A stretch of DNA of 64,000 bases from Methylobacterium aquaticum (GTDB lineage Bacteria > Pseudomonadota > Alphaproteobacteria > Rhizobiales > Beijerinckiaceae). Position 1 is the first letter of the stretch. Each line of letters begins with the position of its first letter. The notes beneath the pieces are model-generated. The model saw only the letters and a list, made by a program, of their open reading frames with translations. It did no database searches and was not told where the DNA came from. This document shows positions 10,272 to 64,000 of this stretch, piece by piece. A program made the translations under genes and the position numbers. The stretch is from contig NZ_CP043627.1 in NCBI RefSeq assembly GCF_016804325.1, positions 5,911,501 through 5,975,500 of the forward strand, read 5' to 3'.

Positions 10272-10646
10272 ATGGGTCAGTCTCACCCCCCGACCTTGCC
10301 ACGGGTTCTCGTCGTCGAAGACGACCCGATCCTGATGATGGCGCTGACCGAGTTCGTCGAGAACGCCGGCTGCGAAGCCGTCGAGGCCAGCAGCATCATC
10401 GAGGCCATCCAAATCCTAGAGGCCCGGACCGACATCCGTACGGTGTTCACCGACCTCGACATGCGCGGCTCGACGGCCGGAATGGAACTGGCGCTGCTCA
10501 TCCGCGATCGTTGGCCACCGATCGAACTCCTGATGGTCTCCTCGCAACCGTGGGACCCTGCTCAGATCCCCTCGCGCGGGATTGTGCTCGGCAAGCCGTT
10601 CGACCGACGCAAGATCGAGGCGACGCTTCGACGGTTTGCCGAATAG
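10272..10646 (+). CDS. Single-domain response regulator paired with the upstream HWE kinase
   Basis: A 124-residue receiver with no output domain. It has the acidic pair (VVEDDP), phospho-acceptor Asp in VFTDLDM, and the switch Lys in GKPF. The ATG at 10272 lies four bases after the kinase stop codon, so the pair is almost certainly co-transcribed; longer in-frame starts would run back into the kinase gene. Stand-alone receivers next to HWE kinases usually pass phosphate on or act as phosphate sinks in general stress-response or light pathways; which applies here cannot be told. Confidence 0.9.
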   Translation: MGQSHPPTLPRVLVVEDDPILMMALTEFVENAGCEAVEASSIIEAIQILEARTDIRTVFTDLDMRGSTAGMELALLIRDRWPPIELLMVSSQPWDPAQIPSRGIVLGKPFDRRKIEATLRRFAE

Positions 10647-36901: not shown

Positions 36902-36903
36902 CC

Positions 36904-37947: not shown

Positions 37948-37963
37948 CTTCCATGAGGCGCGC

Positions 37964-40510
37964 ATGAGGCTCACCGTTCAGGCGACCGTGCTCGGCGCGC
38001 TCCTGGCCGCCCTGCTCACCTGGCTGATGATCAACGGCAAGGGCGAGCTGGACGCCGATCACTTGCGGACCCAGCGCAGTGTCGACGCCCTCGCGCTCGC
38101 CGAATCCCGGCTGCAGCACGACGTGCTCCGGGCGCGGACGGGCCTCCTGCGCAACTACGACCCGATCGTGGCGCATGTTCGGGAGATGGAGGAGGCGCTG
38201 GCCGGGCTGCGCGCGGCGAGCGGCCAGGATGACCCCGCGATGCGCGCCCTGACGGAGGCGATCGCCAGGGAGGCGCAGATGGCCGAGCGCTTCAAGACCG
38301 GAAACGCCCTCGTTCAGAACTCGATCGCGTATTTCGATTCCCTGAGCGACCGCCTCTCCGACACGCATGTCGACGTCCGGCTCGCCCAGGCGGTCGCGGC
38401 CATTCAGGTTCGGGTCTCGGAACTCGCCCGGGACGCGACGCGTGAGCGGATCGATGACATCCGCGTCCGGCTCGATGCCCTTGCGTCCGCCGACTTGGCG
38501 TTCGGCAACTCGGCGTCCGGCAACTTGGCGTCCGGCGCTGCCGCGGCGGACCGGGCGGCGGATATCGCCGCCATCGTCCTGCACGGACGCCAGCTCCTCG
38601 ACCTGCTGCCGCAGGTCGACGCCGCCACCCGCTCGCTGCCGGCCTCGTCGAGCGAGGCGGCGCGGCGCGCCCTCCTCGAGGCCCGCCGCGCCCTGAAGGA
38701 TCGGCGTCAGGCCCGCGCCGATGGCTTCCGCCTCGCTCTCTACGCGGCCGCCCTCGCCCTGGTGGCCCTGGTGATCCGCGTCGGCCTGCTGATGCGGGCG
38801 GGGACCGTCAGCTTACGCCGGACGATCGCCTTCCAGTTGGTGGTCGCCCAGGCCGCGAACCGCTTCCTGGCGAGCCAGCCCGACGAGATCTCCGCCTGCA
38901 TCGGCGAGGTCCTCGCGATGATCGGCGAGGGCCTGGGCGTGGATCACGGCTACGTGCTCATGCTCGACGGGAGCGATGCGGTCCACCTCTGGGGCCGGGC
39001 CGGCCGCCCGCCTCCCCGTGGCTGGCCGCGGGCGCAGCGCGACCTGATCCCCGACATCCTCGCCGCGCCCGACGACCACCTCTTCGTCGAGGCTGCCGCG
39101 GGCGCCGGCCCGCCGGCCCTGGTGCGGGCGCTCGCCACACGCGGCGTCGTCTCGTGGACTGGCGCGCGGCTGCGCCGCGGGGAGCGGATCGTCGGCGTGA
39201 TGTGCTTCGAGCGCGGCAGCCCGCAACCGGCCTGGCTGCGGCACTCGCGCGGCCTTCTGCAGATCGGGGCCGACAGCTTCGGGGCCGCCTTGGAGCGCCA
39301 GCAGGTCTGGGCCGAGCGCCGCGAGATCGAGGCCACCTTGCGGCGCGCGCAGAGGCTGGAAGCGATCGGCATCTTCGCCAGCGGCGTGGCGCACAACATC
39401 AACAACGTTCTCAACGTCATGCTGGGCCACGCCGAGATCGCCGCCGACGCCCTGCCGGCCGACCCGCGACGGGCCGCCCGGCAGATCGATCTCCTGGTCC
39501 GGGCGGGCGGCCGGGCGCACGAGATCGCCGGACAGATCCTCGATTACGGGCGGCGGGGCGGTGCGGCTCGCGGCACGAGCGTCGTCGAGGCGGTCGTGGC
39601 CGAGACGGTGGCCCAGATCCGCACCTCGACGACCGACCCGGCGGCGATCCGCCTCGCCGGGACCGTGGATGGCGCGGTCGTCGAGGGAGAGCCGGCGCAG
39701 TTGCAGCAGGTGGTCCACAACCTGATCCGCAATGCCCTCCAGGCCTCCGATCCGGGCGGCGCGGTCGACGTGCGGCTCGAACGGATCTCTTTGCGCGAGC
39801 GCCGAACGCTCTCGCATGGAGAGCTGGGCCCCGGCGAGTACGTCTGCATCCGCGTGGCCGATCAAGGCCGCGGCATGGATACGGCCACGCTCGCGCGGAT
39901 CTTCGAACCGTTCTTCACCACCCGCCCGGCCGGGACCGGGCTCGGCCTCGCCACCGCGTTCGAGTTCGTCCAGGAGCAGGACGGTGCCTTCCATGTGCGC
40001 AGCGCTCTGGCGGCGGGCAGCGCGTTCGAGGTCTGGTTGCCGGTCCGCCCGCAGGCCGGGCCGGAGGTCGCTGCCGTCGGCGGCACCGTGATGATCGTCG
40101 GAAACGCCCGCTCCACGGTTCAGGAGGACGAGGAGACGCTCGCGGCGTTGGGCTACGAGCCCGTCGGCTACGCCGATCCGGATGCGGCGCTGGCGGCGCT
40201 CCGCGCGGAGCCGGGACGCTTCGACCTGCTGATCGTCGAGAACCAGCCATCCGGACGTTCGGGGCTCACGTTCGCTCGCCGCGCCGCCCGAATCGTCCAT
40301 CGCCCCATCGTGCTCTCGCTGTCGGCCGCGGATACGGTGAGACCGGAGGTGCTCTCGGCGATCCCCATCGTCGACGTCGCGCACCGGCCGTGGCGCTCGC
40401 ATGCCCTCGCGCTCATGCTGCGGCGGCACCTGGGTTCGGACCCGCGAAGTTCCGCCCGGCACGGGAGAACCGAGAATCGGGCGGCAACGCCGTCGCGGAG
40501 CCTCCACTGA
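37964..40510 (+). CDS. Membrane sensor histidine kinase with degenerate receiver
   Basis: An 848-residue kinase: first membrane helix at the N-terminus (GALLAALLTWLMI), helical periplasmic sensor (about 25-255, of the DAHL type by general look), second helix (about 260-282), GAF-like domain (310-450), HisKA with His477 (GVAHNINNVL) and HATPase (RNALQAS, DQGRGMD, GTGLGLA). The C-terminal 120 residues have a receiver fold, but the acidic pair reads VGNARS, the phospho-acceptor is Glu759 (LLIVENQPSG) and the Lys is Arg (AHRPW). It is thus a pseudo-receiver, perhaps locked in a phosphorylated-like state. It starts 16 bases after the peroxidase stop. The partner is the OmpR regulator at the operon head. 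Confidence 0.9.
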   Translation: MRLTVQATVLGALLAALLTWLMINGKGELDADHLRTQRSVDALALAESRLQHDVLRARTGLLRNYDPIVAHVREMEEALAGLRAASGQDDPAMRALTEAIAREAQMAERFKTGNALVQNSIAYFDSLSDRLSDTHVDVRLAQAVAAIQVRVSELARDATRERIDDIRVRLDALASADLAFGNSASGNLASGAAAADRAADIAAIVLHGRQLLDLLPQVDAATRSLPASSSEAARRALLEARRALKDRRQARADGFRLALYAAALALVALVIRVGLLMRAGTVSLRRTIAFQLVVAQAANRFLASQPDEISACIGEVLAMIGEGLGVDHGYVLMLDGSDAVHLWGRAGRPPPRGWPRAQRDLIPDILAAPDDHLFVEAAAGAGPPALVRALATRGVVSWTGARLRRGERIVGVMCFERGSPQPAWLRHSRGLLQIGADSFGAALERQQVWAERREIEATLRRAQRLEAIGIFASGVAHNINNVLNVMLGHAEIAADALPADPRRAARQIDLLVRAGGRAHEIAGQILDYGRRGGAARGTSVVEAVVAETVAQIRTSTTDPAAIRLAGTVDGAVVEGEPAQLQQVVHNLIRNALQASDPGGAVDVRLERISLRERRTLSHGELGPGEYVCIRVADQGRGMDTATLARIFEPFFTTRPAGTGLGLATAFEFVQEQDGAFHVRSALAAGSAFEVWLPVRPQAGPEVAAVGGTVMIVGNARSTVQEDEETLAALGYEPVGYADPDAALAALRAEPGRFDLLIVENQPSGRSGLTFARRAARIVHRPIVLSLSAADTVRPEVLSAIPIVDVAHRPWRSHALALMLRRHLGSDPRSSARHGRTENRAATPSRSLH
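38495..38539 (+). repeat. Three in-frame 15-bp tandem repeats in the sensor kinase
   Basis: Units beginning TTGGCGTTCGGCAAC repeat three times with few changes, encoding LAFGN-SASGN-LASGA in the periplasmic sensor domain just before its last helices. Copy number could vary between strains and change linker length. Confidence 0.7.
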
Positions 40511-51065: not shown

Positions 51066-52472
51066 ATGCAGCCGAACTGGGTCGTGCTGTCGCTCACGTT
51101 GGCCTACTTGGCAGCGATGGGGTTGATCAGCGTCGTCGCGCGCCGTCACGCCAGGAGCGCCGGCAGCTTCACGTCGGGAGGAGTGCGTTACCCGGCAGTC
51201 CTGATCGGCTTCCTGCTCATGTCCGAGTTCATCGGTACGGCGGCGAGCGTCGGCACGACGCAGACCGCCGTGAAGGTCGGCCTCTCGGCGGCCTGGAACA
51301 TCGTGGCCCTCGGCATCGGCTTCATGCTGTACGCCTTCTTCCTGGCCCGTCGCTTCAAGACCCTCGGCGAGAATACCATCTCGGGCGCGCTGGCCCGCGC
51401 CTATGGACGCCCGACCAAGCTCGCCACCTCGGTCATCATGATCTTCGCCCTGCAGATCGTGGCGATCTCGACCTACGCGGGCGGCGGCTCCATCCTGGCG
51501 GGGCTGCTCGGGATGGACCGCACCACGGCGATCGTCATCACCGGCGCGGTGGCGACGCTCTACGTCGGCATCGGCGGCATGCGCTCCGTGATCACCACCA
51601 ATGTGCTGCACGCCGTCGTCAAGTACGTCGGCATCCTGGTCGCAGCGGCCTTCGCCGTCTCGCAAATCGGCGGCCTCGGGTCCCTGCAGGCACAGGTTCC
51701 GGCCCGGATGTTTGCCGTCGACACCGTCGGCTGGTCCCAGATCCTGGCTTGGCTCGTGGCCGGGATCGGCGCGGTCTTCTCGACACAATACGTGATCCAG
51801 GCGATCAACACCGTGGAGGACGGTCGCACCGCCCAGGCCGCGAGCTTCTGGTGCGCAATCCTTCTCGTTCCGTTCGGCCTGCTGGCTGCCCTCGTCGGCG
51901 TGTGCGCGGGCGCCTTGATGCCGAACGTGCCGCCGATCGGGGTGCTGCCGGCGCTGATCGGCCGGATGGACGACGTCCTTGCCGCGGTCGTGGTCGCGGG
52001 CCTCGCCGGTTCGCTGTTCGGCACGATCTCGGCGCTCAGCATCGGTGCGGCGACGCTCCTCTACAAGGATTTCTACATACCCCTTCGCGGCGATGTGGAA
52101 GGACGCGGCTCGCTCGCCTTCGTGCGTGCGGCGACGATCGCGGTGGGGCTGCTGCCGATTCCGCTCGCGATCTACGCGCCGGATATCCTGAAGGTTACCT
52201 TCCTCGCCAAGTCCCTGCGCACCACTCTCGCGGTCCTGGTCCTGTTCGCCTTCTACGCGCCACACGTGGCGCGGCCGCGGGCCGCATTCGTCAGCATCGT
52301 CGCGTCCCTCGTGCTGACGATCGGCTGGTTCCTGGCGGGCGACCCATTTGGGATCGACAATGCCTACGTGGCTCTGGTCATCCCATTGGTCGTGATGGGG
52401 ACGGATCGCCTGCTGAAGCGGTCAGGCGCGGACATCCCGGCCTCTGTTCCGGTATCCCTGCGACAGAAGTAG
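51066..52472 (+). CDS. Sodium:solute symporter (SSS/SLC5 family)
   Basis: A 468-residue protein with about 13 hydrophobic helices in the LeuT-like arrangement. Family segments include SEFIGTAASVGTTQTAVKVG near helix 2, ALQIVAISTYAGGGSILAG, LYVGIGGMRSVITTNVLHAV (helix 5, sodium site) and STQYVIQAINT. SSS carriers take up organic acids, proline, sugars or vitamins with sodium. Its place directly before the AraC regulator and furan genes suggests uptake of an aromatic or furan carboxylate, but sequence alone does not prove it. The last 20 residues are cytoplasmic and disordered. Confidence 0.88.
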   Translation: MQPNWVVLSLTLAYLAAMGLISVVARRHARSAGSFTSGGVRYPAVLIGFLLMSEFIGTAASVGTTQTAVKVGLSAAWNIVALGIGFMLYAFFLARRFKTLGENTISGALARAYGRPTKLATSVIMIFALQIVAISTYAGGGSILAGLLGMDRTTAIVITGAVATLYVGIGGMRSVITTNVLHAVVKYVGILVAAAFAVSQIGGLGSLQAQVPARMFAVDTVGWSQILAWLVAGIGAVFSTQYVIQAINTVEDGRTAQAASFWCAILLVPFGLLAALVGVCAGALMPNVPPIGVLPALIGRMDDVLAAVVVAGLAGSLFGTISALSIGAATLLYKDFYIPLRGDVEGRGSLAFVRAATIAVGLLPIPLAIYAPDILKVTFLAKSLRTTLAVLVLFAFYAPHVARPRAAFVSIVASLVLTIGWFLAGDPFGIDNAYVALVIPLVVMGTDRLLKRSGADIPASVPVSLRQK

Positions 52473-52532
52473 CAGCGAGGCTGGGCATGGCGACGGCTGG
52501 CTGCGTTCGGCACCGGGTGCTAGGCTGTTCTC

Positions 52533-53390
52533 ATGTCTGATGCTCTCGAAATCACGTACGGAGATTTCGGCCGCGTTGCCCTGCTCGACATGGATCGCGG
52601 GTTGGTTCGCCACGCCCATCCGCACTGCCACGTGCTGCTGAAGGTCGAGGGTGACGACACGCAGTTCCTGGTCGGCGACCGGGTGGTCAACCTGACCGAC
52701 AGCCAGGCGGTCCTCGTCAACGCGTGGGAGACCCACGCCTACGTCCACGATCCGCGCCGCAAGCCGTCGATGATCCTCGCGCTGTACATCGAGCCGGCAT
52801 GGCTCGGCGCCTTCCGGCACAATTGGTCGGCGAGCGCCGCACCGGGCTTCTTCGACGAGCCCGCCGGGCTGATCACCGCGGTGATCCGCGGTCTCGTGCG
52901 GGATCTCGCCGCCGAGATGGTCTACACCCCCGGTTCACCGCGCATCCGGGACGAGCTGCTGCCGGGACTGATGATCGCCTTGATCGAGCGGTTCACGAAG
53001 TGGCGCGAGATCGGAACCTCCCTGCGCGAAGCAGGGCGGCGCCCGCGGGGAGACTGGCGTGTGCAGCGGGCCATGGCCCGGATGCGCGGCGAGGACGGGC
53101 TCGGCCTCAGCGCCGAAGCCCTGGCCCGCGAAGCCGGCCTGTCGCGCGCCCATTTCTACCGCCTGTTCGAGCAGACGACCGGCGCCTCGCCGCACGTCTT
53201 CCTCAACTCGATCCGGATCGAGCGCGCCGTCGAGGCGATCGTCGCGGGCGACGAGAGCCTTTCGGATCTCGGCACGAAGCTCGGCTTCGCGGCACCCGCG
53301 CATTTCTCGCGCTTCTTCCGCGACCACGTCAGCGTGCCCCCGAGCGTCTTCCGCGGCATCGTCCGCCGCTCGGCCGGCTTCGCGGCCTGA
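52533..53390 (+). CDS. AraC-family transcriptional regulator of the furan cluster
   Basis: A 285-residue protein: N-terminal cupin (HAHPHCHVLLKVEGDDTQF, LVNAWETHAY) and C-terminal paired helix-turn-helix (SAEALAREAGLSRAHFYRLF and LSDLGTKLGFAAPAHFSRFF). It lies between the symporter and the molybdenum dehydrogenase genes, all in one direction. The promoter region downstream has direct repeats of the spacing AraC proteins bind. The known hmf cluster uses a LysR regulator, so this would be a different control type. Confidence 0.9.
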   Translation: MSDALEITYGDFGRVALLDMDRGLVRHAHPHCHVLLKVEGDDTQFLVGDRVVNLTDSQAVLVNAWETHAYVHDPRRKPSMILALYIEPAWLGAFRHNWSASAAPGFFDEPAGLITAVIRGLVRDLAAEMVYTPGSPRIRDELLPGLMIALIERFTKWREIGTSLREAGRRPRGDWRVQRAMARMRGEDGLGLSAEALAREAGLSRAHFYRLFEQTTGASPHVFLNSIRIERAVEAIVAGDESLSDLGTKLGFAAPAHFSRFFRDHVSVPPSVFRGIVRRSAGFAA

Positions 53391-53550
53391 TCCCACCCGC
53401 CGCAACTCACGCGCTGCTCCCTGCCTGCACGACCGCCGCCCATTGCCGGACGGGGTGCGACGCTCGCCTGTCCCGTGCGCCGGAGAAGCAAGGGTCGCAC
53501 CCCTGCACCAGCAAGCCCGCCCGGACGTCACGATGCCGGTCCGCGGATTT

Positions 53551-53589
53551 TGAGACGTTTCGGTAAGTTGTGAGACGGGGGCGTCTCAC
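53551..53589 (+). promoter_or_regulatory. Candidate AraC operator upstream of hmfA
   Basis: TGAGACG occurs at 53551-53557 and again at 53571-53577, exactly 20 bp apart (two helical turns). The second copy is also half of the perfect inverted repeat GTGAGACG/CGTCTCAC (53570-53577, 53582-53589). It lies 70-110 bases before the hmfA start and right after the AraC gene. Confidence 0.55.
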
Positions 53590-53659
53590 GTCCCGCGGCG
53601 GGGTCGATGCAGTTTGCACTCACGAGGCCTCCCTAGAGCCTCGAACGAGGAAGCGAGCA

Positions 53660-56617
53660 TTGGGCATCGAGCACAGCCGTTTCGTCGGGCAGTCGGTCGA
53701 GCGCGTCGAGGACGCCGCTCTGCTGTCCGGACGCGGACGCTACATCGACGATCTCGGGCACAAGCCCGGTACGCTGCACGCGGCGATCCTGCGCTCCCCT
53801 CACGCGCACGCCGACATCCTCGGCCTCGACGCCGACGCGGCCCGCGCGCTCCCGGGCGTGGTCGCGGTGCTCACCGGACACGATCTCGCCGACGTCGCCG
53901 GTCCCCTCGTCCCGGCGCTCCGCGCTGCCGTGGACGCACGGGCGATCGCTGTCGACCGGGTGCGCTACGTCGGCGAGCCGGTCGCCGTGGTCGTGGCGCA
54001 GGATCGTTACGTCGCCGAGGACGGCTGCGACCTGATCGAGGTCGAGTACCGCGCCCGCCCGGCGATGGTCGATCCGCTGGCAGCGCTGGCCGAGGACGCG
54101 CCCGTCCTGCACGAGGGCGTCGGGCAGAACCTCGTCAGCGACCGCGCCTTCCGGTACGGCGACCCGGACGCCGCCTTCGCGCAGGCCCGCCACACCCTCT
54201 CGGTGACGGTCCGCTATCCCCGGAACACCGGTTCGCCGATGGAGACCTACGGGGTCGTCGCCGAGTACGACCCGAGCGACGATTCCTACGATCTCCTCGC
54301 GAACTTCCAGGGCCCCTTCAGCATCCATGCCGTGGTGGCCCGCGCCCTCAAGGTGCCGGGCAACCGCCTGCGGCTGCGCACGCCGCCGGATTCCGGCGGC
54401 AGCTTCGGCGTGAAGCAGGGCGTCGCCCCCTACGCGGTCTTGATCTGCGCCGCCGCCCGCAAGGTCGGGCGCCCGGTCAAGTGGATCGAGGACCGGATGG
54501 AGCACCTCGCCGCCTCGGTCTCGGCGACGAACCGCGTCACCACCCTGACGGCCGCCTTCGACGGCGAGGGCCGCATCGCTGCCCTCGACTGGGACCAGGT
54601 CGAGGATTGCGGCGCCACCCTGCGCGCACCGGAGCCGGCGACCCTGTACCGGATGCACGGCAACATGACCGGCGCCTACGCGATCCGGCACGTGCGCATC
54701 CGCAACCGGGTGGTGGTCACCAACAAGACGCCGACCGGCCTCGTGCGCGGCTTCGGCGGCCCGCAGGTCTACTACCCTCTCGAGCGCCTCGTGCAGCGCA
54801 TCGCCGCGACGCTCGGGCTCGACCCGCTCGACGTGATCCGCCGGAACCTGATCCCGGCGGACGCCTTCCCGTACCGCACCGCGACCGGGGCACTGTACGA
54901 CTCGGGCGACTACCAGCGCGCCCTCGACGAGGCCGTTCGCGATGGCGGTCTCGACGCTCTGCGCCGCCGTCGCGAGGCGGCGCGGGCGGAGGGCCGGCTC
55001 TACGGCATCGGCTTCACGGCCGCGGTCGAGCCCAGCGTCTCGAACATGGGCTACATCACCACGGTGCTGACGGCCGCCGAGCGCGCCAAGGCCGGCCCGA
55101 AGAACGGCGCGCAGGCCACTGCCACCGTCACTCTCGATCCGGTCGGCTCGGTGACCGTGCAGGTCGCCTCGGTGCCGCAGGGCCAGGGCCATCGCACCGT
55201 TCTCGCCCAGGTCGTGGCCGACGTCTTCGGCATCCCGCTCGATCAGGTCCGGGTGACCACGGATCTCGACACCGCCAAGGACGCGTGGTCGATCGCCTCG
55301 GGCAATTATTCGAGCCGCTTCGCCGCCGCGGTCGCCGGGGTGGCCTACCAGGCCGCCACGCGCCTGCGCGACCGGCTCGCCCAGGTGGCGGCGGCCCAGC
55401 TCAACGTGCGGGCCGACGACCTCGTCTTCGCGGGCGGCCGCGTAGCGTCGCGGACGAACCCGGACGCCGCGCTGCCCTTCGCGCGCGTCGCCGCGACGAG
55501 CCACTGGTCGCCGGGCCTCGTGCCCGACGAGGTCGGCTCCGTCATCCGCGAGACGGCGTTCTGGACGCCGCCGGAGCTGGCAGCACCCGACGAGGGCGAT
55601 GCCGTCAACTCCTCGCTGTGTCACGGCTTCATCTTCGATTTCTGCGGCGTGGAGGTGGATCGGGCGACGGGCAAGCTCGTCATCGACCGCTACGTCTCGA
55701 TGCACGATTGCGGCCGGATCCTCCACCCCGGCATGGTCGAGGGCCAGGTGCGCGGCGGCTTCGCCCAGGCGCTCGGCGCCGCCGTGTACGAGGAGCTCGC
55801 CTACGGCGAGGACGGCGCCTTCCTGTCAGGCACCTTCGCCGATTACCTCTTGCCGACCGCAACCGAGATCCCCGACCTCGTCGTCCTGCATCTCGAGAGT
55901 CCCTCTCCTTTCACACCCCTCGGAGCGAAGGGCGTGGGCGAGGGCAACTGCATGTCGACGCCGGTCTGCCTCGCCAATGCGGTGGCGGACGCGCTCGGGA
56001 TCGACGCCATCGACCTGCCGCTGACGCCCGCCAAGCTCGCCGCGCTCAGCGAGCGCAGCGACGAGCCGGCTCCCCCGCAGGGCCGCACCGTGCAGGCGCA
56101 GGCCCGCCCGGGTGACCGGACCATGCGCGGCGAGGGTGAAGCCCGGGTGGCGGCGGCCCCGGAGGCGGTCTGGGCGATGCTGCTCGACCCCGCCGTGCTG
56201 ACCTCGGTGATCCCGGGCGCGCATGGCGTGCGCAAGCTGTCGGAGACGCATTTCCGAGCCGACGTGACCCTCGGCGTCGGCCCCGTGAAGGGCCGCTACA
56301 AGGCCGACATCACGCTCTCGGATCTCGATCCGCCCCGGGCCGCGACGTTGTCGGGCACCGTGACGGGGGCGCTCGGCAACGGCGGCGGCAGCGGGCGGAT
56401 CACCCTGGCGCCGGACGCCCGGGGCGGGACGTGCATCGGCTACGCCTACGAGGCCTCCGTCGGCGGCAAGGTCGCGGCGGTGGGTGGCCGTCTCCTCGAC
56501 GGGGCGGCCCGGGTGATCATCGGCGGCTTCTTCTCCGCCCTCGCGCGCCGTGCCGGCGGCGAGTCCCGGCCCGGTCTGCTGCGCCGGCTCCTCGCGCGCC
56601 TGGGGGTCTCCGCATGA
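53660..56617 (+). CDS. hmfA: 2-Furoyl-CoA dehydrogenase large (molybdopterin) subunit fused to CoxG/SRPBCC domain
   Basis: A 985-residue protein. Residues about 1-130 are the a/b hammerhead domain of xanthine-dehydrogenase-family large subunits (VGQSVERVEDAALLSGRGRY). Residues 140-790 are the molybdopterin-binding region (DSGGSFGVKQG, LVRGFGGPQVYYPLER, VPQGQGHRTVLAQ, GAKGVGEGN). From about 820 there is an SRPBCC/CoxG domain (AAPEAVWAMLLDPAVL, ADVTLGVGPVKGRY). The TTG at 53660 follows GAGGAAG and starts the conserved part; the frame is open further upstream. Gene order large-FAD-FeS-CoA ligase-hydratase matches hmfABCDE, so the substrate is inferred as 2-furoyl-CoA (5-hydroxylation). It overlaps the next gene by four bases. 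Confidence 0.82.
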   Translation: MGIEHSRFVGQSVERVEDAALLSGRGRYIDDLGHKPGTLHAAILRSPHAHADILGLDADAARALPGVVAVLTGHDLADVAGPLVPALRAAVDARAIAVDRVRYVGEPVAVVVAQDRYVAEDGCDLIEVEYRARPAMVDPLAALAEDAPVLHEGVGQNLVSDRAFRYGDPDAAFAQARHTLSVTVRYPRNTGSPMETYGVVAEYDPSDDSYDLLANFQGPFSIHAVVARALKVPGNRLRLRTPPDSGGSFGVKQGVAPYAVLICAAARKVGRPVKWIEDRMEHLAASVSATNRVTTLTAAFDGEGRIAALDWDQVEDCGATLRAPEPATLYRMHGNMTGAYAIRHVRIRNRVVVTNKTPTGLVRGFGGPQVYYPLERLVQRIAATLGLDPLDVIRRNLIPADAFPYRTATGALYDSGDYQRALDEAVRDGGLDALRRRREAARAEGRLYGIGFTAAVEPSVSNMGYITTVLTAAERAKAGPKNGAQATATVTLDPVGSVTVQVASVPQGQGHRTVLAQVVADVFGIPLDQVRVTTDLDTAKDAWSIASGNYSSRFAAAVAGVAYQAATRLRDRLAQVAAAQLNVRADDLVFAGGRVASRTNPDAALPFARVAATSHWSPGLVPDEVGSVIRETAFWTPPELAAPDEGDAVNSSLCHGFIFDFCGVEVDRATGKLVIDRYVSMHDCGRILHPGMVEGQVRGGFAQALGAAVYEELAYGEDGAFLSGTFADYLLPTATEIPDLVVLHLESPSPFTPLGAKGVGEGNCMSTPVCLANAVADALGIDAIDLPLTPAKLAALSERSDEPAPPQGRTVQAQARPGDRTMRGEGEARVAAAPEAVWAMLLDPAVLTSVIPGAHGVRKLSETHFRADVTLGVGPVKGRYKADITLSDLDPPRAATLSGTVTGALGNGGGSGRITLAPDARGGTCIGYAYEASVGGKVAAVGGRLLDGAARVIIGGFFSALARRAGGESRPGLLRRLLARLGVSA

Positions 56618-57453
56618 AGCCCGCCCGCTTCGACTACCTGCGCGCCGCGAGCCTCGACGAGGTTCTGGAGGCGCTGACCCGCCATCGCGACGAGGCCCGC
56701 ATCGTCGCGGGCGGCCAGTCGCTCGTGCCGATGCTGAACATGCGGCTAACGAAGCCCGCGCTGATCGTCGACCTCATGCGGATCGAGACGCTGCGGTCGC
56801 CCCGCCGCGAGAACGGCGCCCTCGTCATCCCGGCGGGCGTGCGGCAGACGCTCCTGCTCGACCGGCCGGGCCTCGCTGACGAGGTGCCGCTCCTGGCCGC
56901 AGCCCTCCCCTTCGTCGGCCACGTCCAGACCCGGGCCCGGGGCACCCTGTGCGGCTCCGTCGCCCATGCCGACCCCAGCGCCGAGATCCCGCTCTGCCTC
57001 GTCGCCCTCGAGGGCGAGGTGCATCTGCGCTCCGCCAAGCGGGCGCGGCGGGTGCGGGCCGACGACTTCTTCGTCGGGATGATGGTGACCGACCGGGCCG
57101 ACGACGAGCTCGTCGAGGCGATCGCCCTGCCGGTGCGCAGGCCGGGCTCCGGCTACGCCTTCGCGGAGATGGCCCGGCGCCACGGCGATTTCGCCATCGT
57201 GGCCTGCGCGGCCGTGGTCGACGGGCAGCGGATGCGCCTCGCGGTGGGCGGCGTCGCCGACCGGCCGACCGCCCGCGACTGGCCGCTCCTAGACGGCGCC
57301 GCCCTCGACGACGCCCTCAACGCCCTCGCCTGGGACCTCAGCGCAGGGGACGACGTCCACGCCACTGCCCGCTACCGCCGCAACCTCGTGCGCCGCCTCG
57401 GCCGCCAGGTCCTCGAACAGGCCGCAGAGGAGGCCCGCCGATGCCACGGCTAG
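56614..57453 (+). CDS. hmfB: 2-Furoyl-CoA dehydrogenase FAD-binding subunit
   Basis: A 279-residue medium subunit of the xanthine-dehydrogenase/CO-dehydrogenase (CoxM) type. FAD-binding motifs are VAGGQSLVPMLNMRL near the N-terminus and RARGTLCGSVAHADPSAEIP; the C-terminal CO-dehydrogenase flavoprotein domain runs from about residue 175. It passes electrons between the iron-sulfur subunit and the acceptor. ATG overlaps the hmfA stop (ATGA) and its end overlaps hmfC by 13 bases, so the three subunits are translationally coupled. Furoyl-CoA specificity is inferred from context only. Confidence 0.82.
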   Translation: MKPARFDYLRAASLDEVLEALTRHRDEARIVAGGQSLVPMLNMRLTKPALIVDLMRIETLRSPRRENGALVIPAGVRQTLLLDRPGLADEVPLLAAALPFVGHVQTRARGTLCGSVAHADPSAEIPLCLVALEGEVHLRSAKRARRVRADDFFVGMMVTDRADDELVEAIALPVRRPGSGYAFAEMARRHGDFAIVACAAVVDGQRMRLAVGGVADRPTARDWPLLDGAALDDALNALAWDLSAGDDVHATARYRRNLVRRLGRQVLEQAAEEARRCHG

Positions 57454-57965
57454 ACGCGACGCGACGCCACGAGGTCGCCTTCACGCTGAACGGCGCCCCC
57501 GCCCGGGTCGAGGTCGAACCGCGGACGCTGCTCACCGACGCGCTCCGCCACGGCCTCGGAATGACCGGCACCCATGTCGGCTGCGAGCACGGTGTCTGCG
57601 GCGCCTGCACGATCACCATCGACGGGTTGCCCGCCCGCGCCTGCCTGACGCTCGCCGTCGCCGTGGAGGGCAGCGACGTGCGCACCGTCGAAGGGCTGGC
57701 GCCGGAACCCGGCCGGCTCGGCGTGCTCCAGGCGGCCTTCCGGCGCCACCACGCCCTGCAATGCGGCTTCTGCACCGCCGGCATCCTGATGTCGCTCGAC
57801 GCCTACCTGCGGCACCGCCCGCACGCGACGCAGGGAGAGCTCACCGAGGTGATCGGCGGGCATCTCTGCCGCTGCACCGGCTACGCCCCGATCATCGCGG
57901 CCGCCGTCGAGGCCGCCGCCCTGCTGCGCGGCGAACCGACCGAGGAGACCCCATCCGATGCTTGA
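57441..57965 (+). CDS. hmfC: 2-Furoyl-CoA dehydrogenase [2Fe-2S] subunit
   Basis: A 174-residue small subunit with a plant-type [2Fe-2S] cluster (CEHGVCGAC, Cys48/53/56, with Cys68 in RACLTL) and a second C-terminal cluster (CGFCTAG and CRCTGY). Length and order are normal for CoxS-type subunits. It carries electrons from the molybdenum site. Overlaps hmfB at its start and the CoA-ligase gene by eight bases at its end. Confidence 0.85.
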   Translation: MPRLDATRRHEVAFTLNGAPARVEVEPRTLLTDALRHGLGMTGTHVGCEHGVCGACTITIDGLPARACLTLAVAVEGSDVRTVEGLAPEPGRLGVLQAAFRRHHALQCGFCTAGILMSLDAYLRHRPHATQGELTEVIGGHLCRCTGYAPIIAAAVEAAALLRGEPTEETPSDA

Positions 57966-59508
57966 CCTTGGCACTAGCTTCCTGGCGAGCGTGTCCCGCG
58001 ACCCGCGGGGCATCGCCATCGTCGACGGGGAGATCCGCCTCACCTACGCGGAGTGGTATGGGCTGATCTCCTCCGTGGTCGCGGGCCTCGACGCGCTCGG
58101 CCTTAAGCCCGGCGACCACCTCGTCACGGTGCTGCAGAACCGCCTGGAAGCGGCGACGCTCCACTGGGCCTGCCAGTTCGCCGGCCTCGTGCTCACGCCG
58201 GTCAACTGGCGGGCGAATCCCGACGAGATCGACTTCGTGGTCGAGAACGCGGAGGCGAAGGCGGTCGCCTACGAGGGCGTCTCGGCCGCGAGCGTGCGGG
58301 CGAGTGCCGCCGCCCGCCTCTGCCCGCGCATCGTCGTCGGTGTGGAGCCCGAGCCCAGCGAGACGCGCTTTGCCGACCTCGCCGCCGTGCCGGCCGAGCC
58401 GGTCGCGCCACGGGCCGATGCCGAGGCGGTCTCGCTGATGCTCTACACGTCGGGCACCACGGCGAAACCCAAGGGCGTGCCGCGCCGCCACCGCACGGAG
58501 CGCGCCGCCGCCCTCGCCCACGTGGCCCAGAACCTCTATGGCCGCGGCGAGCGGACCCTCGGCGTCATGCCGCTCTACCACACGATGGGGGTGCGCTCGC
58601 TGCTCGCCATGTCGCTCATCGGTGGCACCTTCGTGTGCCTGCCGCGCTTCGACGTGGCGGGCGCGCTGCGTCTGATCGCGGCCGAGCGGGTGACGAACCT
58701 CTACCTCGTGCCGACGCTCTACCACGACCTCGTCCACCATCCGGACTTCGCCGCGACCGACACGTCGTCGGTGCGCAAGCTCGGCTTCGCGGGCGCGCCG
58801 ATGACGGACGGCCTCCTCGGCCGGCTGACCGAGGCGTTCCGGCCGGACCTCTTCGTCAACCATTACGGCTCGTCGGAGGTCTACACCTTCACGATCAACC
58901 AGGACGCCGCGGTGAAGCCCGGCTCGGCGGGGCGGGCCGGCCTCAACACCCTGGTGCGGATCGTCCCGCTCGCGGCCACCGATCCGCACGCGGCCGCCGC
59001 CCCAGGCGAGGAGGGCGAGATCGCCGTGATCGCGCGCGGCGACGAGGCCTTCGAGGGCTACTGGCGCCGCCCGGAGGCCGACGCGAAGGCGTTCCGCGAC
59101 GGCTGGTACTTCACGGGCGACACCGGCTTCATGGACGGCGATGGCGACGTGTTCGTGACCGGCCGGGTCGACGACATGATCATCACGGGCGGGGAGAACG
59201 TCTCTCCGGTCGAGATCGAGAGCTGCCTGTCGCTGCACCCGGCCGTCTCGGAGATCGCCGTGGTCGGCCTGCCCGACGAGCGCTGGGGGAAGGTGGTCAC
59301 CGCCTTCGTCAAGCGCCGTGCGTCCGTCGACGAAGCCGCTCTCGACGCGCATTGCCGCGCGGCCGGGCTGCCGAGCCATAAGCTCCCACGCGCCTACGTG
59401 TTCGTCGCCGCGATCCCGAAATCCCCGGTCGGCAAGCTCCTGCGCCGCCAGCTCGTCGCGGGCGCGTACGAGGCAGAGGCGGCGAGCGACCCCTCCGCCG
59501 CCGCCTGA
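57958..59508 (+). CDS. hmfD: Acyl-CoA synthetase, probable 2-furoyl-CoA synthetase
   Basis: A 516-residue ANL-superfamily ligase. P-loop LYTSGTTAKPKG lies near residue 162, the NHYGSSEVYTF adenylate-binding segment near 300, the hinge YFTGDTGFMDGDG near 384, and the catalytic Lys493 in SPVGKLLRR. It activates a carboxylic acid to its CoA thioester at the cost of ATP. In this operon the acid should be 2-furoate, giving the dehydrogenase its substrate; other heteroaromatic or aromatic acids are possible. It overlaps hmfC by eight bases. Confidence 0.82.
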   Translation: MLDLGTSFLASVSRDPRGIAIVDGEIRLTYAEWYGLISSVVAGLDALGLKPGDHLVTVLQNRLEAATLHWACQFAGLVLTPVNWRANPDEIDFVVENAEAKAVAYEGVSAASVRASAAARLCPRIVVGVEPEPSETRFADLAAVPAEPVAPRADAEAVSLMLYTSGTTAKPKGVPRRHRTERAAALAHVAQNLYGRGERTLGVMPLYHTMGVRSLLAMSLIGGTFVCLPRFDVAGALRLIAAERVTNLYLVPTLYHDLVHHPDFAATDTSSVRKLGFAGAPMTDGLLGRLTEAFRPDLFVNHYGSSEVYTFTINQDAAVKPGSAGRAGLNTLVRIVPLAATDPHAAAAPGEEGEIAVIARGDEAFEGYWRRPEADAKAFRDGWYFTGDTGFMDGDGDVFVTGRVDDMIITGGENVSPVEIESCLSLHPAVSEIAVVGLPDERWGKVVTAFVKRRASVDEAALDAHCRAAGLPSHKLPRAYVFVAAIPKSPVGKLLRRQLVAGAYEAEAASDPSAAA

Positions 59509-59566
59509 GGCAATTCCCTCCCCCCCCCAAAGGCCTTGTCTCCAAGGTCAACGAGAGAGTGACCCT

Positions 59567-60358
59567 ATGACCAGCGACCCCCGGCTTTCCAACCTCGACG
59601 GCTTCCGCGTCGAAATCGACCCCGCCCGCGAGCGCGCCGACGTCATCCTGGCCCGCCCGCCCATGAACGTGATCGAGATGCCCCAACGTGACCAGATCCG
59701 GAAGGTGTTCGAGGCCCTCGACGAAGATGACCGCGTCCGCGTGATCGTGCTGCGCGCCGAGGGCGAACACTTCTCCTCCGGCGGCTACATCAAGGGCTTC
59801 CTCGACGCCTCGCCCGAGCATGTCTCCAAGCTCGCCTGGAACATGGCGGCGCCGGCCCGCTGTGCCAAGCCCGTGATCGCGGCCAACCGCGGCTATACGT
59901 TCGGCGTTGGCTTCGAGATCTCGCTCGCCTGCGACTTCCGCATCGTCTCGGAGACCTGCCGGTACGCGTTGCCCGAGCAGAAGCTCGGCCAGATCCCAGG
60001 CTCCGGGGGCTCAGCCCGCCTGCAGAAGATCGTCGGCATCACCCGCACCAAGGATATCGTGATGCGCTCGAAGCGCATTCCCGGCCGGCAGGCGCTGGAA
60101 TGGGGGATCGCCACCGAGTGCGTGCCGGACGGCGAACTCGAAGCCGCCGTCGACGCGCTGGTGGAGGAGCTGCGCGGCTTCTCGCCCATCGCCCAGCGCA
60201 CGGCCAAGAAGCTCCTCAACGACACCGAGGACTCGACCCTCTCGATCGCCATCGAACTCGAGGGCCACTGCTACAGCCGCCTGCGCCAGTCCGACGACTT
60301 CCGCGAGGGCGTCGAGGCCTTCCACGCCAAGCGCAAGCCGAGCTTCCGCGGCTCGTAG
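59567..60358 (+). CDS. hmfE: Enoyl-CoA hydratase-family protein, probable 2-oxoglutaryl-CoA hydrolase
   Basis: A 263-residue crotonase-fold protein: oxyanion-hole segments EGEHFSSGGYIKGF and GYTFGVGFEISLACDFRI, and EQKLGQIPGSGGSARLQK near the active site. In the furoate pathway HmfE hydrolyses 2-oxoglutaryl-CoA to 2-oxoglutarate and CoA after hydroxylation and ring opening of furoyl-CoA. The assignment comes from gene order. About 58 bases and a ten-C run separate it from hmfD. It is followed by tandem repeats and a hairpin. Confidence 0.8.
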   Translation: MTSDPRLSNLDGFRVEIDPARERADVILARPPMNVIEMPQRDQIRKVFEALDEDDRVRVIVLRAEGEHFSSGGYIKGFLDASPEHVSKLAWNMAAPARCAKPVIAANRGYTFGVGFEISLACDFRIVSETCRYALPEQKLGQIPGSGGSARLQKIVGITRTKDIVMRSKRIPGRQALEWGIATECVPDGELEAAVDALVEELRGFSPIAQRTAKKLLNDTEDSTLSIAIELEGHCYSRLRQSDDFREGVEAFHAKRKPSFRGS

Positions 60359-60374
60359 CGCTGCCCCGCCCGAG

Positions 60375-60413
60375 CCGGCGCCAAGAACCAGCGCCAAGAA
60401 CCAGCGCCAAGAG
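60375..60413. repeat. Three 13-bp tandem repeats between hmfE and the MFS gene
   Basis: The units CCGGCGCCAAGAA, CCAGCGCCAAGAA and CCAGCGCCAAGAG are consecutive, starting 17 bases after the hmfE stop. Slippage could change the copy number; the function is unknown. Confidence 0.75.
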
Positions 60414-60455
60414 CCGGCCGGGCGGCCCCGAAATCGACCCTCATGACCATCGGAA

Positions 60456-60478
60456 GGCCCGGCCGCACCGGCCGGGCC
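60456..60478 (+). terminator. Perfect 10-bp GC hairpin before the MFS gene
   Basis: GGCCCGGCCG and CGGCCGGGCC around a 3-base loop form a very stable stem about 17 bases before the MFS ribosome-binding site. It has no T-run. It may end part of the hmf transcript, protect it from 3' decay, or tune expression of the carrier. Confidence 0.6.
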
Positions 60479-60510
60479 AACGATGCCGCGTGCCCAAAGG
60501 AGGAAACCCG

Positions 60511-61857
60511 ATGTCCGCCGCCACCACGATTCCCGTGTCCGAGGCCTTGCCCAAGCCGACGACCCGCCAGACCGCCACCGCCGCCATGGCCTCGCTGTTC
60601 GGATGGGGCCTCGACCTGTTCGACCTTTTCATCCTGCTCTACGTTGCTCCCGTCATCGGGACGCTGTTCTTCCCCGCCGACAAGCCGATGCTGTCGCTTG
60701 CGGGCGCCTACGCATCCTTCGCCGTCACGCTGCTGATCCGTCCCCTTGGCTCGGCCCTGTTCGGGTCCTACGCCGATCGCCTCGGCCGGCGGCGCGCGCT
60801 GATGATCGCCGTGGTCGGGGTCGGCGTCTCGACCGCGGCCTTTGGGCTCCTGCCCACGGTCGGCCAGATCGGCTGGGCCGCTACGGCGATCTTCCTCGCA
60901 TTCCGCCTGATCCAAGGCATCTTCGTCGGCGGCGTGGTCGCGGCCTCGCACACGATCGGCACCGAATCCGTCCCCGAGCGGTGGCGCGGCCTGATGTCGG
61001 GCGCAGTCGGCGGCGGCGGCGCGGCGATCGGCGGGTTACTGGCCTCGCTGGTCTTCTACGTGATCTCCCTGCTGGCACCCGGCGAGGCCTTCGCCTCCTG
61101 GGGCTGGCGGGCGATGTTCTTCTCGGGGCTCCTGACCTCGGCCGTCGGCCTGGTCCTGTTCCGCAACCTTGAGGAATCGCCGATCTTCCGACAGCTCCAG
61201 GCGGAGAAGTCGGCGCGTCGCGCCGGGGCACCCGTGGTCGCCTCGCCGGTGCGTGCCCTGTTCTCGGCCGAGTACATCAGGGCCTTCCTGGTCTCGACCC
61301 TGATCTCGTTCGGCGGTGGCGCAGCCTACTATCTCACCTCCGGCTACCTGCCGACCTACCTCAAGCTCGTGAATGGCGTTCCGAATGCGACCGCGTCGAT
61401 GATGCTCATCGCCGCCAACGTCGCCGCCGCATTCGGCGCCTGCGCGCTCGGCGAACTGAGTCAGCGCATCGGACGCCGATCGAGCTTCCTGCTCATGGGC
61501 GCAGTGCGACTGGTGGCCTTCCCGGCGCTCTTCCTCGCCATGGCCCAGACCACCGACACTGTGCTCCTCACAGTCTACGTCATGCTCCTGTCCCTCATCG
61601 CCAACGCGAGCTACGGCCCGCTGCTGATCTTTCTCAACGAGAAGTTCCCGACCGCTTTGCGCGCCACCGGCACCGGCCTGACCTGGAACGTCGGTTTCGC
61701 GCTGGGCGGCATGCTGCCGACGCTGGTGTCGCTGGCGGTCGACGGTCCCGGCCAGATCCCGATGATGCTCGCGATCTTCACGACCGCCGTCACCGCCGTC
61801 TACCTCGTTGGCGCCTTCATGACGGAGGAGACGCGGGGCAACCTCGAGCGCATCTGA
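60511..61857 (+). CDS. MFS metabolite:H+ symporter, probable furoate/aromatic acid carrier
   Basis: A 448-residue major-facilitator protein with 12 predicted helices, central loop near residue 235, and the family motif GSYADRLGRRRALM between helices 2 and 3. The sequence pattern (LFGWGLDLFDLFILLYVAP at helix 1, ESVPERWRGLMSG) is of the aromatic acid/metabolite:H+ symporter type. A perfect AAAGGAGG precedes the ATG. In known hmf clusters an MFS carrier for furoate (hmfT) is present, so this is the likely counterpart. Confidence 0.87.
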   Translation: MSAATTIPVSEALPKPTTRQTATAAMASLFGWGLDLFDLFILLYVAPVIGTLFFPADKPMLSLAGAYASFAVTLLIRPLGSALFGSYADRLGRRRALMIAVVGVGVSTAAFGLLPTVGQIGWAATAIFLAFRLIQGIFVGGVVAASHTIGTESVPERWRGLMSGAVGGGGAAIGGLLASLVFYVISLLAPGEAFASWGWRAMFFSGLLTSAVGLVLFRNLEESPIFRQLQAEKSARRAGAPVVASPVRALFSAEYIRAFLVSTLISFGGGAAYYLTSGYLPTYLKLVNGVPNATASMMLIAANVAAAFGACALGELSQRIGRRSSFLLMGAVRLVAFPALFLAMAQTTDTVLLTVYVMLLSLIANASYGPLLIFLNEKFPTALRATGTGLTWNVGFALGGMLPTLVSLAVDGPGQIPMMLAIFTTAVTAVYLVGAFMTEETRGNLERI

Positions 61858-61899
61858 GCGCTCCCTTCGCTGCAGACTTGTACCTGCCGCTGATTCCGG

Positions 61900-61926
61900 G
61901 ACCGGCCAGGGCATACCTGGCCGGTC
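61900..61926 (+). terminator. Perfect 11-bp hairpin after the MFS gene
   Basis: GACCGGCCAGG/CCTGGCCGGTC with a 5-base loop lies 43 bases past the MFS stop. No T-run follows. Probable end of the hmf-MFS transcript. Confidence 0.6.
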
Positions 61927-61951
61927 ACTCCCGTTCCCGAAGGAATGTGCG

Positions 61952-62433
61952 ATGGACGCCCACGCGCTCTGGGCCTTTGCCCTTGCTCTCTATGGCCGTC
62001 CGGGGCCGCGCCGGCCTGCCTCGCCCTCCAGGACGAAGCGGCGGCGGACGTGACACTCGTGCTCTACCTGATCTGGTGCGCGGAGACTGGCCGGCCTCTC
62101 AATGCAGAAGCGGTCCGGTCGGCCGACGCCGCCGTCGCGCCGTGGCGCGCAGCCGTGGTCGCACCGCTCAGAGCCGTGCGCAGGGCCATGAAGGCGCCCC
62201 TCCTGCCCGGCCTCGCGACAGAGTCGCTACGGGACAGGATCAAGGCCTCGGAAATCGAGGCGGAGCGCCTCGCCCTGGTAATACTCGCGGGGGGCGCGCC
62301 CGCTCCGGAGCCGTCCGCTCCCGAGCCCCTCGCAGCGGCAAACCGATACCTCGACCTTTACGCCGTTCATCTCGGCCGGCCCCTGCCGCGAGTCCCCCGC
62401 GAGGCGCTGCTCCGGGCTTTGGCAGAAGCATGA
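61952..62433 (+). pseudogene. TIGR02444 (DUF2390) family gene with a one-base frameshift
   Basis: From the ATG at 61952 (AAGGA upstream) the frame reads DAHALWAFALALYGRPG. The rest of the family sequence (APACLALQDEAAADVTLVLY, then AAVAPWRAAVVAPLRAVRR) continues in the next frame to the stop at 62433. One G is missing in the GGGG run at 62002-62005; adding it joins both halves into a normal protein of about 160 residues. The chemically odd first 20 residues of the +1 frame are therefore not real. The defect may be a true mutation or a homopolymer error in the sequence. The function of the family is unknown. Confidence 0.8.
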
Positions 62434-62435
62434 CC

Positions 62436-63008
62436 TCAAGAACTGGCGTCGCGCCAGCGCCGGACCCGCCCGGATTCGATCTCGAAGAGGTCGAGTACCC
62501 GGCCGAGCGTGTGGTCGATCATCTCGGCGAGGCTCTCGGGCCGCGCGTAGAAGGCAGGGACCGGAGGCGCGATGATCGCCCCCATCTCCGACAGGGCCGT
62601 CATGGTGCGCAGGTGGCCAGTATGCAGGGGGGTCTCTCGCACCATGAGGACGAGACGGCGCCGCTCCTTCAGCACCACGTCCGCGGCCCGGGTCAGCAGG
62701 CCAGAGGTCACGCCGGTGGCGATTTCAGCCATACTGCGCATCGAGCATGGCGCCACGACCATGCCGCGGGTGCGGAAGGAACCGGAGGAGATCGCCGCGC
62801 CAATATCGGCCTGCGCGTACGTCCGGGCGGCCAGTACGCGCACCTCTGAGACCTTGAGGTCGGTCTCGTGGGCGAGCGTCACCTCGGCCGAGCGCGACAT
62901 CACGAGATGTGCCGGAATGTCGAGGTCGCGCAGGATCTCCAGCAGGCGGATCCCATAGATCACGCCCGAGGCCCCCGAGATGCCGACCACCAGGGGCAGG
63001 TTCGTCAC
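62436..63008 (-). CDS. ubiX: UbiX-family flavin prenyltransferase (compare hmfG)
   Basis: A 190-residue flavoprotein: the N-terminal GISGASGVIYGIRLLEIL binds FMN phosphate, APCSMRSMAEIATG is the conserved Ser/aromatic region, and RRRLVLMVRETPLHTGHL is the prenyl-phosphate site. It makes prenylated FMN for UbiD-type decarboxylases. In furan catabolism UbiX and UbiD homologues (hmfG, hmfF) decarboxylate 2,5-furandicarboxylate to 2-furoate. No UbiD gene is in the window; it may lie beyond the right edge. It overlaps the aldehyde dehydrogenase gene by four bases, so they form an operon. Confidence 0.87.
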   Translation of the reverse strand: MTNLPLVVGISGASGVIYGIRLLEILRDLDIPAHLVMSRSAEVTLAHETDLKVSEVRVLAARTYAQADIGAAISSGSFRTRGMVVAPCSMRSMAEIATGVTSGLLTRAADVVLKERRRLVLMVRETPLHTGHLRTMTALSEMGAIIAPPVPAFYARPESLAEMIDHTLGRVLDLFEIESGRVRRWRDASS

Positions 63009-64000
63009 GGCACTGTACCCTCGACGAGGCCCGGCGCCTGATAGATGTGTTTCAGTTCCGTGAAGTCATGGACTGCGTCGTAGCCGTGCAAGCGCCCCAG
63101 GCCGCTCTGCCGGTAACCGCCGGTTTCGGCTTCGGCGAACAGCTTGTTGTGGTCGTTGATCCAGACCGTGCCGTTGCGCAGCGCCCGGGCCACTCGCAGC
63201 GCCCGCGCCCCGTCGCGGGTCCAGACGCTGGCGGAGAGACCGAACACGGTATCGTTCGCCCGCGCCACCGCCTCGGCCTCGGTGTCGAAGGCTTCGAGCA
63301 CTACAAAGGGCCCGAAGATCTCCTCCTGCACGAAGTCCGCATGCGGATCGTCGTGCGCGACGAGGGCCGGCGTGAGGAAGGCGCCACGCGCCCGCGCCCC
63401 GTCGGGAATCGTGGCCCGCAGCAGCACCCGGTCGGCCGCTGCGCAGGCTGCCTCCATCCGGGCCGCGACCGCGTCGCGGCTCGCCCGGTCGATCAGCGGG
63501 CCCATCTGCGTGCCAGCCTCGAGGCCCGGTCCGACCCGCAGGTCGGCCAGGGCAGCGGTCAGAGCGTCGCGCATCGCGGGCAGCCCCGCACGGTGGACGA
63601 GGACGCGCCGCGCAGCGGTACATTGCTGGCCCGAGATGACCGTCGCGGCGGCGGCAAGCTTGCGCGCGACGTCGCCGATCTCCGCGTCGGGGAAAACGAG
63701 GCAGGCGGATTTTCCCCCGAGTTCCAGCGAGAGCTTCTTCATGCTGTCGGCGGCGGCCCGCATGATCGCCTTGCCGGTCGCCGTCGAACCGGTGAAGCTC
63801 AGGACGTCGACGTCGTGCGACACCGACAGGTGCTGGGCACCTGCGTGCCCGGTCTCGACCACAACGTTGACGACGCCCGGCGGCAGCCCGGGGGCGGTCA
63901 AGAGCGGCGCCATCAGGGCCGCGTTGAACACTGCCGTCTGCGCGGCGGGCTTGACGACGGTGGTGCAGCCCGCGGCCAGCGCCGGAGCGAGCGAGCGGAC
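63005..64000 (-). CDS. Aldehyde dehydrogenase family protein, N-terminus beyond the window
   Basis: The C-terminal 330 or so residues of an NAD(P)-dependent aldehyde dehydrogenase. The frame is open to the window edge. It includes the cofactor segments GCTTVVKPA and LSFTGSTATGK, the catalytic base in LELGGKSA, the nucleophilic Cys in SGQQCTAARR, and EEIFGPFVV. The N-terminal 140 or so residues are missing. With UbiX coupled behind it and the furoate genes nearby, it may oxidise furfural, hydroxymethylfurfural or a related aldehyde. Other aldehydes are possible. Confidence 0.9.
   Translation of the reverse strand, partial: VRSLAPALAAGCTTVVKPAAQTAVFNAALMAPLLTAPGLPPGVVNVVVETGHAGAQHLSVSHDVDVLSFTGSTATGKAIMRAAADSMKKLSLELGGKSACLVFPDAEIGDVARKLAAAATVISGQQCTAARRVLVHRAGLPAMRDALTAALADLRVGPGLEAGTQMGPLIDRASRDAVAARMEAACAAADRVLLRATIPDGARARGAFLTPALVAHDDPHADFVQEEIFGPFVVLEAFDTEAEAVARANDTVFGLSASVWTRDGARALRVARALRNGTVWINDHNKLFAEAETGGYRQSGLGRLHGYDAVHDFTELKHIYQAPGLVEGTVP

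Follow-up and report, generated by a model that had tools for sequence, protein, structure and literature searches.

Gene content of the locus

The window analysed here is a 64-kb stretch of the 7.28-Mb genome of Methylobacterium aquaticum (C1:5911501-5975500), and its last part, positions 51066-64000, carries a region of hmf genes. The region was followed past the window edge on a longer sequence, locus L003, for which the window coordinate equals the L003 coordinate plus 58499. Its core is hmfABCDE, the predicted genes for a three-subunit molybdenum dehydrogenase, a coenzyme A (CoA) ligase and a crotonase-fold hydrolase (Table 1). Domain matches and a map of open reading frames (ORFs) placed every gene that an earlier note had named in this DNA where, and on the strand on which, the note had put it, including the MFS carrier after hmfE, UbiX and an aldehyde dehydrogenase on the opposite strand, and the SSS symporter ahead of the AraC gene. 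The aldehyde dehydrogenase gene runs out of the window, its conserved region reaching window-equivalent position 64459, and is followed by genes for a LysR regulator, HmfF, an HmfH-type GMC oxidoreductase and a PF04116 protein. The locus is a complete hmf cluster of an already known kind. Furfural and 5-(hydroxymethyl)furfural (HMF) are toxic by-products of heated plant sugars, and we infer from the sequences, with high confidence, that this catabolic cluster of the hmf/psf type serves to degrade them; its substrates, regulation and transport are all read in this way.

The gene order is conserved among relatives, by which we mean the 80 named loci retrieved with HmfA, with flanks of at most 10 kb. 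The order A-B-C-D-E on a single strand was found in all 75 loci with at least 4.2 kb of sequence after hmfA (the other five are too short), so that the order the earlier note had recognised is real. In these 75 relatives, the hmfE homologue that follows hmfD is 74-100% identical to that of the window. UbiD was present within the fetched flank in 44 of the 80 loci, accompanied by LysR in 38 of them. HmfH was visible in 14 of the 80; given the length of the flanks, the remaining loci could carry it farther out. An SSS match was likewise found in 14 loci, lying upstream on the same strand in 11, and the symporter is mainly a Methylobacterium trait, occurring in clusters of this genus and at one other locus.

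Within the genus the distribution is patchy. HmfA was detected at 83% identity or more in 8 of 37 genomes, including that of the window, and the other matches are paralogues of 34-38% identity. The HmfA proteins of Methylobacterium indicum and M. nonmethylotrophicum, two species whose clusters are almost the same as ours, are 100% identical (rounded) to that of the window, and HmfA-E are 55-82% identical to the homologues of the plasmid cluster of Cupriavidus sp. KK10. In that plasmid, hmfH is in pieces (L114:11033-12290), and hmfA is in pieces in a plasmid of Bosea vestrisii (L112:10012-12937).

Table 1. Features of the hmf locus; positions are those of the window unless prefixed with L003.
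Feature	Position	Strand	Evidence or remark
SSS symporter	51066..52472	+	PF00474, 58.9 bits (cut-off 22.8)
AraC-family regulator, putatively of the lower pathway (hmfABCDE)	52533..53390	+	PF12833, 73 bits
Predicted AraC operator	53551..53590	+	Two tandem half-sites, 20-bp period: TGAGAC-N5-GGTAAG then TGAGAC
hmfA, predicted furoyl-CoA dehydrogenase, large (molybdenum) subunit, C-terminal CoxG domain	53660..56617	+	PF02738, PF20256, PF01315, PF06240
hmfB, FAD subunit	56614..57453	+	PF00941, PF03450
hmfC, 2Fe-2S subunit	57459..57965	+	PF01799, PF00111
hmfD, predicted 2-furoate-CoA ligase	57958..59508	+	PF00501, PF13193
hmfE, predicted crotonase-fold 2-oxoglutaryl-CoA hydrolase	59600..60358 (start approximate)	+	PF00378
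MFS metabolite:H+ symporter	60535..61857 (start approximate)	+	PF07690/PF00083; TIGR00883 under its cut-off
UbiX-family flavin prenyltransferase (hmfG/psfC type), putative HmfF cofactor maker	62436..63008	-	NF004685, 262.7 (curated cut-off 188); TIGR00421, 243.7 (curated cut-off 108.9)
Aldehyde dehydrogenase (psfA-like), 3' part, abutting UbiX	63005..64000	-	PF00171, 452.8 bits
LysR regulator, between aldehyde dehydrogenase and hmfF	L003:6097-7080	-	
hmfF/UbiD	L003:7229-8617	+	Start 1.7 kb beyond the window
hmfH-type GMC oxidoreductase, two frames	L003: about 8629-10337	+	
PF04116 gene beside hmfH, convergent with hmfH	L003:10358-11185 (window-equivalent 68857-69684)	-	
Second AraC	L003:11410-12234	+	

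Substrate of the pathway

The earlier note had deduced a furan substrate from gene order. This deduction gains backing from the sequences, because UbiD matches HmfF, the GMC protein matches HMF oxidase, and 2-furoate-CoA ligase is the name given to many proteins related to the ligase. The UbiD gene, for which the earlier note had pointed past position 64000, is the only one in the genome (E <= 0.001). Its product has 6h6v as best match among solved structures (E 1.2e-136), followed at a distance by a different enzyme, AnInD (6e-59), and by PA0254/HudA (4ip2, a pyrrole-carboxylate enzyme; 7.8e-22). Structure 6H6V is identified as HmfF in PMC8988006, and a histidine of HmfF numbered 297 is described as the key to furan specificity in PMC7976604. 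In the 6h6v chain, the sole histidine there is at position 296, the numbering of the paper differing by one, and it aligns with a histidine in our UbiD. Arg304 of 6h6v, which we take to have a functional role in HmfF, aligns with an arginine. The N-terminal piece of the GMC protein matches best 5-(hydroxymethyl)furfural oxidase (6f97, E 3.8e-108). For HmfD, approximately 55 of the 120 matches listed, counted by hand, carry the JGI name 2-furoate-CoA ligase, such names being annotations. The assignment is also favoured by HmfA, whose nearest solved structure is a hydroxylase of heteroaromatic rings.

Several observations weigh against the assignment. HmfA-E reach no cut-off of the NCBIfam models listed, and no furan-specific model is among the NCBIfam matches listed, which neither confirms nor denies the substrate. 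HmfD is also close by sequence to fatty-acyl and chlorobenzoyl ligases. Finally, the two parts of hmfH do not share a frame in the present assembly. If a real frame change interrupts hmfH, the HMF branch would be broken and the locus would serve furfural and furoate only, a serious possibility that we consider the less probable one. The N and C parts sit in different frames in L003 and in one frame in all five fetched relatives that have both parts (L104, L105, L107, L109 and L111), which speaks for a real interruption. On the other side, the difference concerns a single position of a draft assembly and may stem from an error in sequencing, L104 and L105 carry flanking proteins 100% identical to ours, and a second GMC gene, 45% identical, is present elsewhere in the genome.

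It is very improbable that the molybdenum dehydrogenase and the ligase owe the furan label to annotation and in fact use a different aromatic or heteroaromatic acid, for example one derived from pyrrole, pyridine or quinoline: the closest solved structure to HmfA is indeed quinoline 2-oxidoreductase (E 1.6e-122), an enzyme of related heteroaromatic-ring hydroxylation, NCBIfam offers no furan model among the matches listed, and pyrrole-2-carboxylate is also a substrate of a UbiD enzyme, but our UbiD is much nearer HmfF than PA0254/HudA, a gene of the HMF-oxidase type adjoins it, and the gene set as a whole agrees with the set proven by deletions in Pseudomonas umsongensis (PMC12064950).

In the furfural and HMF pathway that we propose, HmfH and the aldehyde dehydrogenase would convert HMF and its acids to furandicarboxylate, which HmfF would decarboxylate to 2-furoate with the flavin made by UbiX. 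In the lower pathway, HmfD would activate 2-furoate, the molybdenum enzyme HmfABC would hydroxylate C5, the ring would then open, and HmfE would liberate 2-oxoglutarate. Furan acids would be imported by the SSS and MFS carriers, uptake of a furan acid being the probable role of the SSS transporter. AraC would turn on the hmfABCDE operon via tandem sites approximately 110 bp before hmfA, and the upper pathway is likely to be controlled by the product of the LysR gene, which is divergent.

Proposed AraC regulation and a predicted operator

The earlier note was right to place an AraC gene beside hmfA. The note contrasted this regulator with that of the known cluster, but AraC control as an unusual feature is rejected, since 73 of the 78 testable relatives have an AraC gene directly upstream of hmfA and on its strand (the exceptions are L038, L096, L097, L099 and L101) and AraC regulation has been published for Pseudomonas: in P. 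pseudoalcaligenes R1D, mutation of araC abolished the use of furfural (PMC6678421), and for P. umsongensis the lower pathway is assigned to AraC and the upper one to LysR (PMC12064950, Table 2). The picture of regulation was also incomplete, as the locus holds AraC but additionally a LysR gene between the aldehyde dehydrogenase and hmfF. The resulting layout, with LysR on the upper and AraC on the lower side, agrees with that table.

The gap between araC and hmfA holds the sequence TGAGACGTTTCGGTAAGTTGTGAGAC at 53551-53576, its single occurrence in the window; the match is exact, and shuffles predict none with up to two mismatches. We defined a first-half pattern, [TC]GAGA-N6or7-GGTAAG, and a full pattern that adds a second GAGA. 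The first half was found in 67 and both halves in 56 of 74 araC-hmfA gaps. When both strands of the remaining 3.13 Mb of these loci were scanned, the first half gave 21 hits; 446 kb of other loci gave none. The consensus of the gaps repeats at a 20-bp period. Among further gaps, that of the Bosea locus L112 has the full pattern, and those of L152, L153 and L180 gave no match; stretches that look similar by eye are present in L152 and L180.

AraC/XylS activators commonly use tandem half-sites ahead of a promoter; for this reason, we read the tandem repeat as a predicted AraC operator. The presence of both a conserved site before hmfA and an adjacent AraC gene would fit AraC control of hmfABCDE. 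The operator pattern had no match in L003; therefore, the upper genes are probably outside the control of the AraC next to hmfA. The second half-site is also spanned by a perfect palindrome, which was considered as the operator and rejected, as it is present only in the window and a few of its closest relatives. No operator or sensor for AraC and furoate is described in the literature searched, judged from listings alone. The predicted operator would provide a testable furoate-responsive promoter common to dozens of alphaproteobacterial clusters.

A PF04116 gene linked to hmf clusters

The gene beside hmfH encodes a protein with a match to PF04116, the fatty acid hydroxylase/sterol desaturase superfamily (33.1 bits; cut-off 31). 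We aligned 63 rows of homologues and, after removal of 13 identical rows, built a tree of 50. The hmf-linked clade, a label assigned by identity (at least 55%) and not by linkage, is separated by a branch whose support values are 97/99 and which recurs in 94% of 200 bootstrap trees, and the non-clade rows (31-44%) form a separate branch. Ten histidines are common to the clade and all 34 other rows, and the protein fits a histidine-box membrane di-metal oxygenase. An extra histidine, H164 of the ORF in the host of the window, is specific to the clade, being present in 95% or more of the 29 clade rows and in 0 of the 34 others. For the AlphaFold model (pLDDT 84.9, pTM 0.81), the nearest fold is that of yeast Scs7p, but the match is weak (E 0.015, TM 0.42, probability 1.00), and a sequence search for a solved relative of the protein found none.

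The clade gene accompanies HmfF in several samples. HmfF (E <= 1e-120) was detected in 5 of 299 Burkholderiaceae genomes; a PF04116 homologue of 59-62% identity was present in the same 5, at 3.6-5.3 kb from HmfF, and in none of the 294 others. Every genome behind the other 15 Burkholderiaceae matches (37-44%) lacks HmfF. A sample of 398 genomes from the phylum held HmfF in 5, including that of the window, with a close PF04116 homologue in 3 of these only; its 8 further matches (32-44%) come from genomes that lack HmfF. One genome (G301) belongs to both samples. Among 23 plasmid records with a PF04116 match, 10 reach at least 55% identity, and 9 of these have HmfF 3.5-10.7 kb away (three of the nine are the same Dinoroseobacter plasmid and two are P. 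caribensis); none of the 13 records under 45% has HmfF nearby. In 48 related genomes and records, the clade gene was found in 5 Methylobacterium (94-99%) and 2 plasmids (56-57%). Thus, the PF04116 gene is an optional extra that is tightly bound to hmf clusters where it is present.

Its immediate neighbours differ among the 12 hmf-linked loci. HmfH is present in five (L003, L113, L114, L181 and L183) and an SDR in seven (L152-L157 and L180), and no locus has both (at least 50% identity). The PF04116 gene adjoins HmfH, or is one gene off, in all five HmfH loci. It adjoins the SDR in L152, L153, L154, L156 and L157, and in L155 lies in the same gene run as the SDR, with transporter genes intervening. 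We infer that this SDR is a PsfG because the Dinoroseobacter SDR gene is 759 bp long.

Since the neighbour of the PF04116 gene, be it HmfH or the SDR, would be the enzyme that acts on the hydroxymethyl group, we tentatively suggest, with low confidence, that the clade consists of membrane di-iron oxygenases of the furan upper pathway, which would make the alcohol for HmfH or the psfG-like SDR. In the simplest case, 5-methylfurfural or 5-methyl-2-furoate would be hydroxylated at its methyl group to give a hydroxymethyl group, which would open the HMF pathway to methylfurans. A number of observations count against a role in the upper pathway. The clade gene is missing from two of the five HmfF genomes in the phylum sample, and also from 18 of the 27 plasmid records whose HmfF reaches at least 52% identity. 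A Caballeronia zhejiangensis plasmid has the clade gene without HmfF. In the 48 related genomes and records, PF04116 is found only at 36-44% in 15 and gives no match in 26. In L180, from Dinoroseobacter, the SDR is approximately 7 kb away, past transporter genes and insertion sequences. PF04116 also includes lipid hydroxylases, and it is possible that the gene modifies lipids and so protects the cells from furans.

In the literature searched for sterol desaturase together with HMF, no title concerned hmf clusters, and among the papers listed by a broader search none carried the term, the main survey of hmf genes being outside the scope of the search; the novelty of the PF04116 clade is accordingly provisional. 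If the proposal is true, the clade would represent an upper-pathway enzyme not named in the literature examined, together with a route from methylfurans to furandicarboxylic acid (FDCA).

More distant PF04116 homologues (L184-L187, and the short loci L119-L179) often neighbour genes for DUF6166, transporters and dehydrogenases. A DUF6166 gene is close by in 16 of the 34 non-clade rows (about 1.5 kb of flank) and in all four plasmid loci, and in none of the 12 hmf-linked loci. This suggests that the distant homologues are another catabolic family.

Other features and gene starts

Several mechanically called ORFs have N-terminal extensions outside their domain matches, and the gene starts were therefore inferred: TTG at 53660 for hmfA, and approximately 56614 for hmfB, 57459 for hmfC, 59600 for hmfE and 60535 for the MFS gene. 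The second AraC shares 38% identity with the first. Its gene is divergent from the PF04116 gene, which it may regulate, and is followed by an IS3 transposase. No RNA families or tRNAs were found in the window. At 35774-40510, the window encodes in succession a response regulator, a di-haem cytochrome c peroxidase/MauG-like protein and a DAHL-domain histidine kinase.

Comparison with known systems

The hmf genes of Cupriavidus basilensis HMF14 are hmfABCDE and hmfFGH'H (PMC6678421, PMC6604932, PMC6961589); the locus resembles them in the order of hmfABCDE and in having UbiD, UbiX and a GMC oxidase in the upper part. The accessions of HMF14 HmfA-E are ADE20399-ADE20403 (PMC6678421). In the plasmid cluster of Cupriavidus NH9, a LysR gene lies beside hmfA, and hmfF, UbiX and hmfH share one strand. 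In contrast, AraC precedes hmfA in the locus described here, UbiX is on the other strand behind the aldehyde dehydrogenase, and an SSS gene lies ahead of AraC. LysR without AraC beside hmfA is seen only in clusters like the Cupriavidus, Caballeronia and Burkholderia plasmid ones.

The hmf-psf genes of P. umsongensis GO16 and P. putida share with our locus AraC for the lower pathway, LysR (psfB) for the upper pathway, psfA, psfC and hmfF (PMC12064950). GO16 has psfG in place of hmfH, plus hyd and psfD, and none of these three was seen beside the Methylobacterium locus. Neither a PF04116 gene nor an SSS symporter appears under that name for GO16 in Table 2 of that paper.

Similar layouts occur in alphaproteobacterial clusters of Bosea, Bradyrhizobium and other Methylobacterium, which have in common AraC-hmfABCDE, often with UbiX, UbiD and LysR nearby. 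Among these, SSS ahead of AraC is mostly found in Methylobacterium, and the hmf-linked PF04116 clade in 5 of the 45 genomes searched. Our locus is a further complete furan pathway, found in a genus of methylotrophs of which one species, M. radiotolerans G-2, is reported to convert HMF to FDCA (PMC6961589). Control by AraC, as proposed for it, is nothing unusual; what deserves a second look is the predicted operator and the clade of PF04116 genes.

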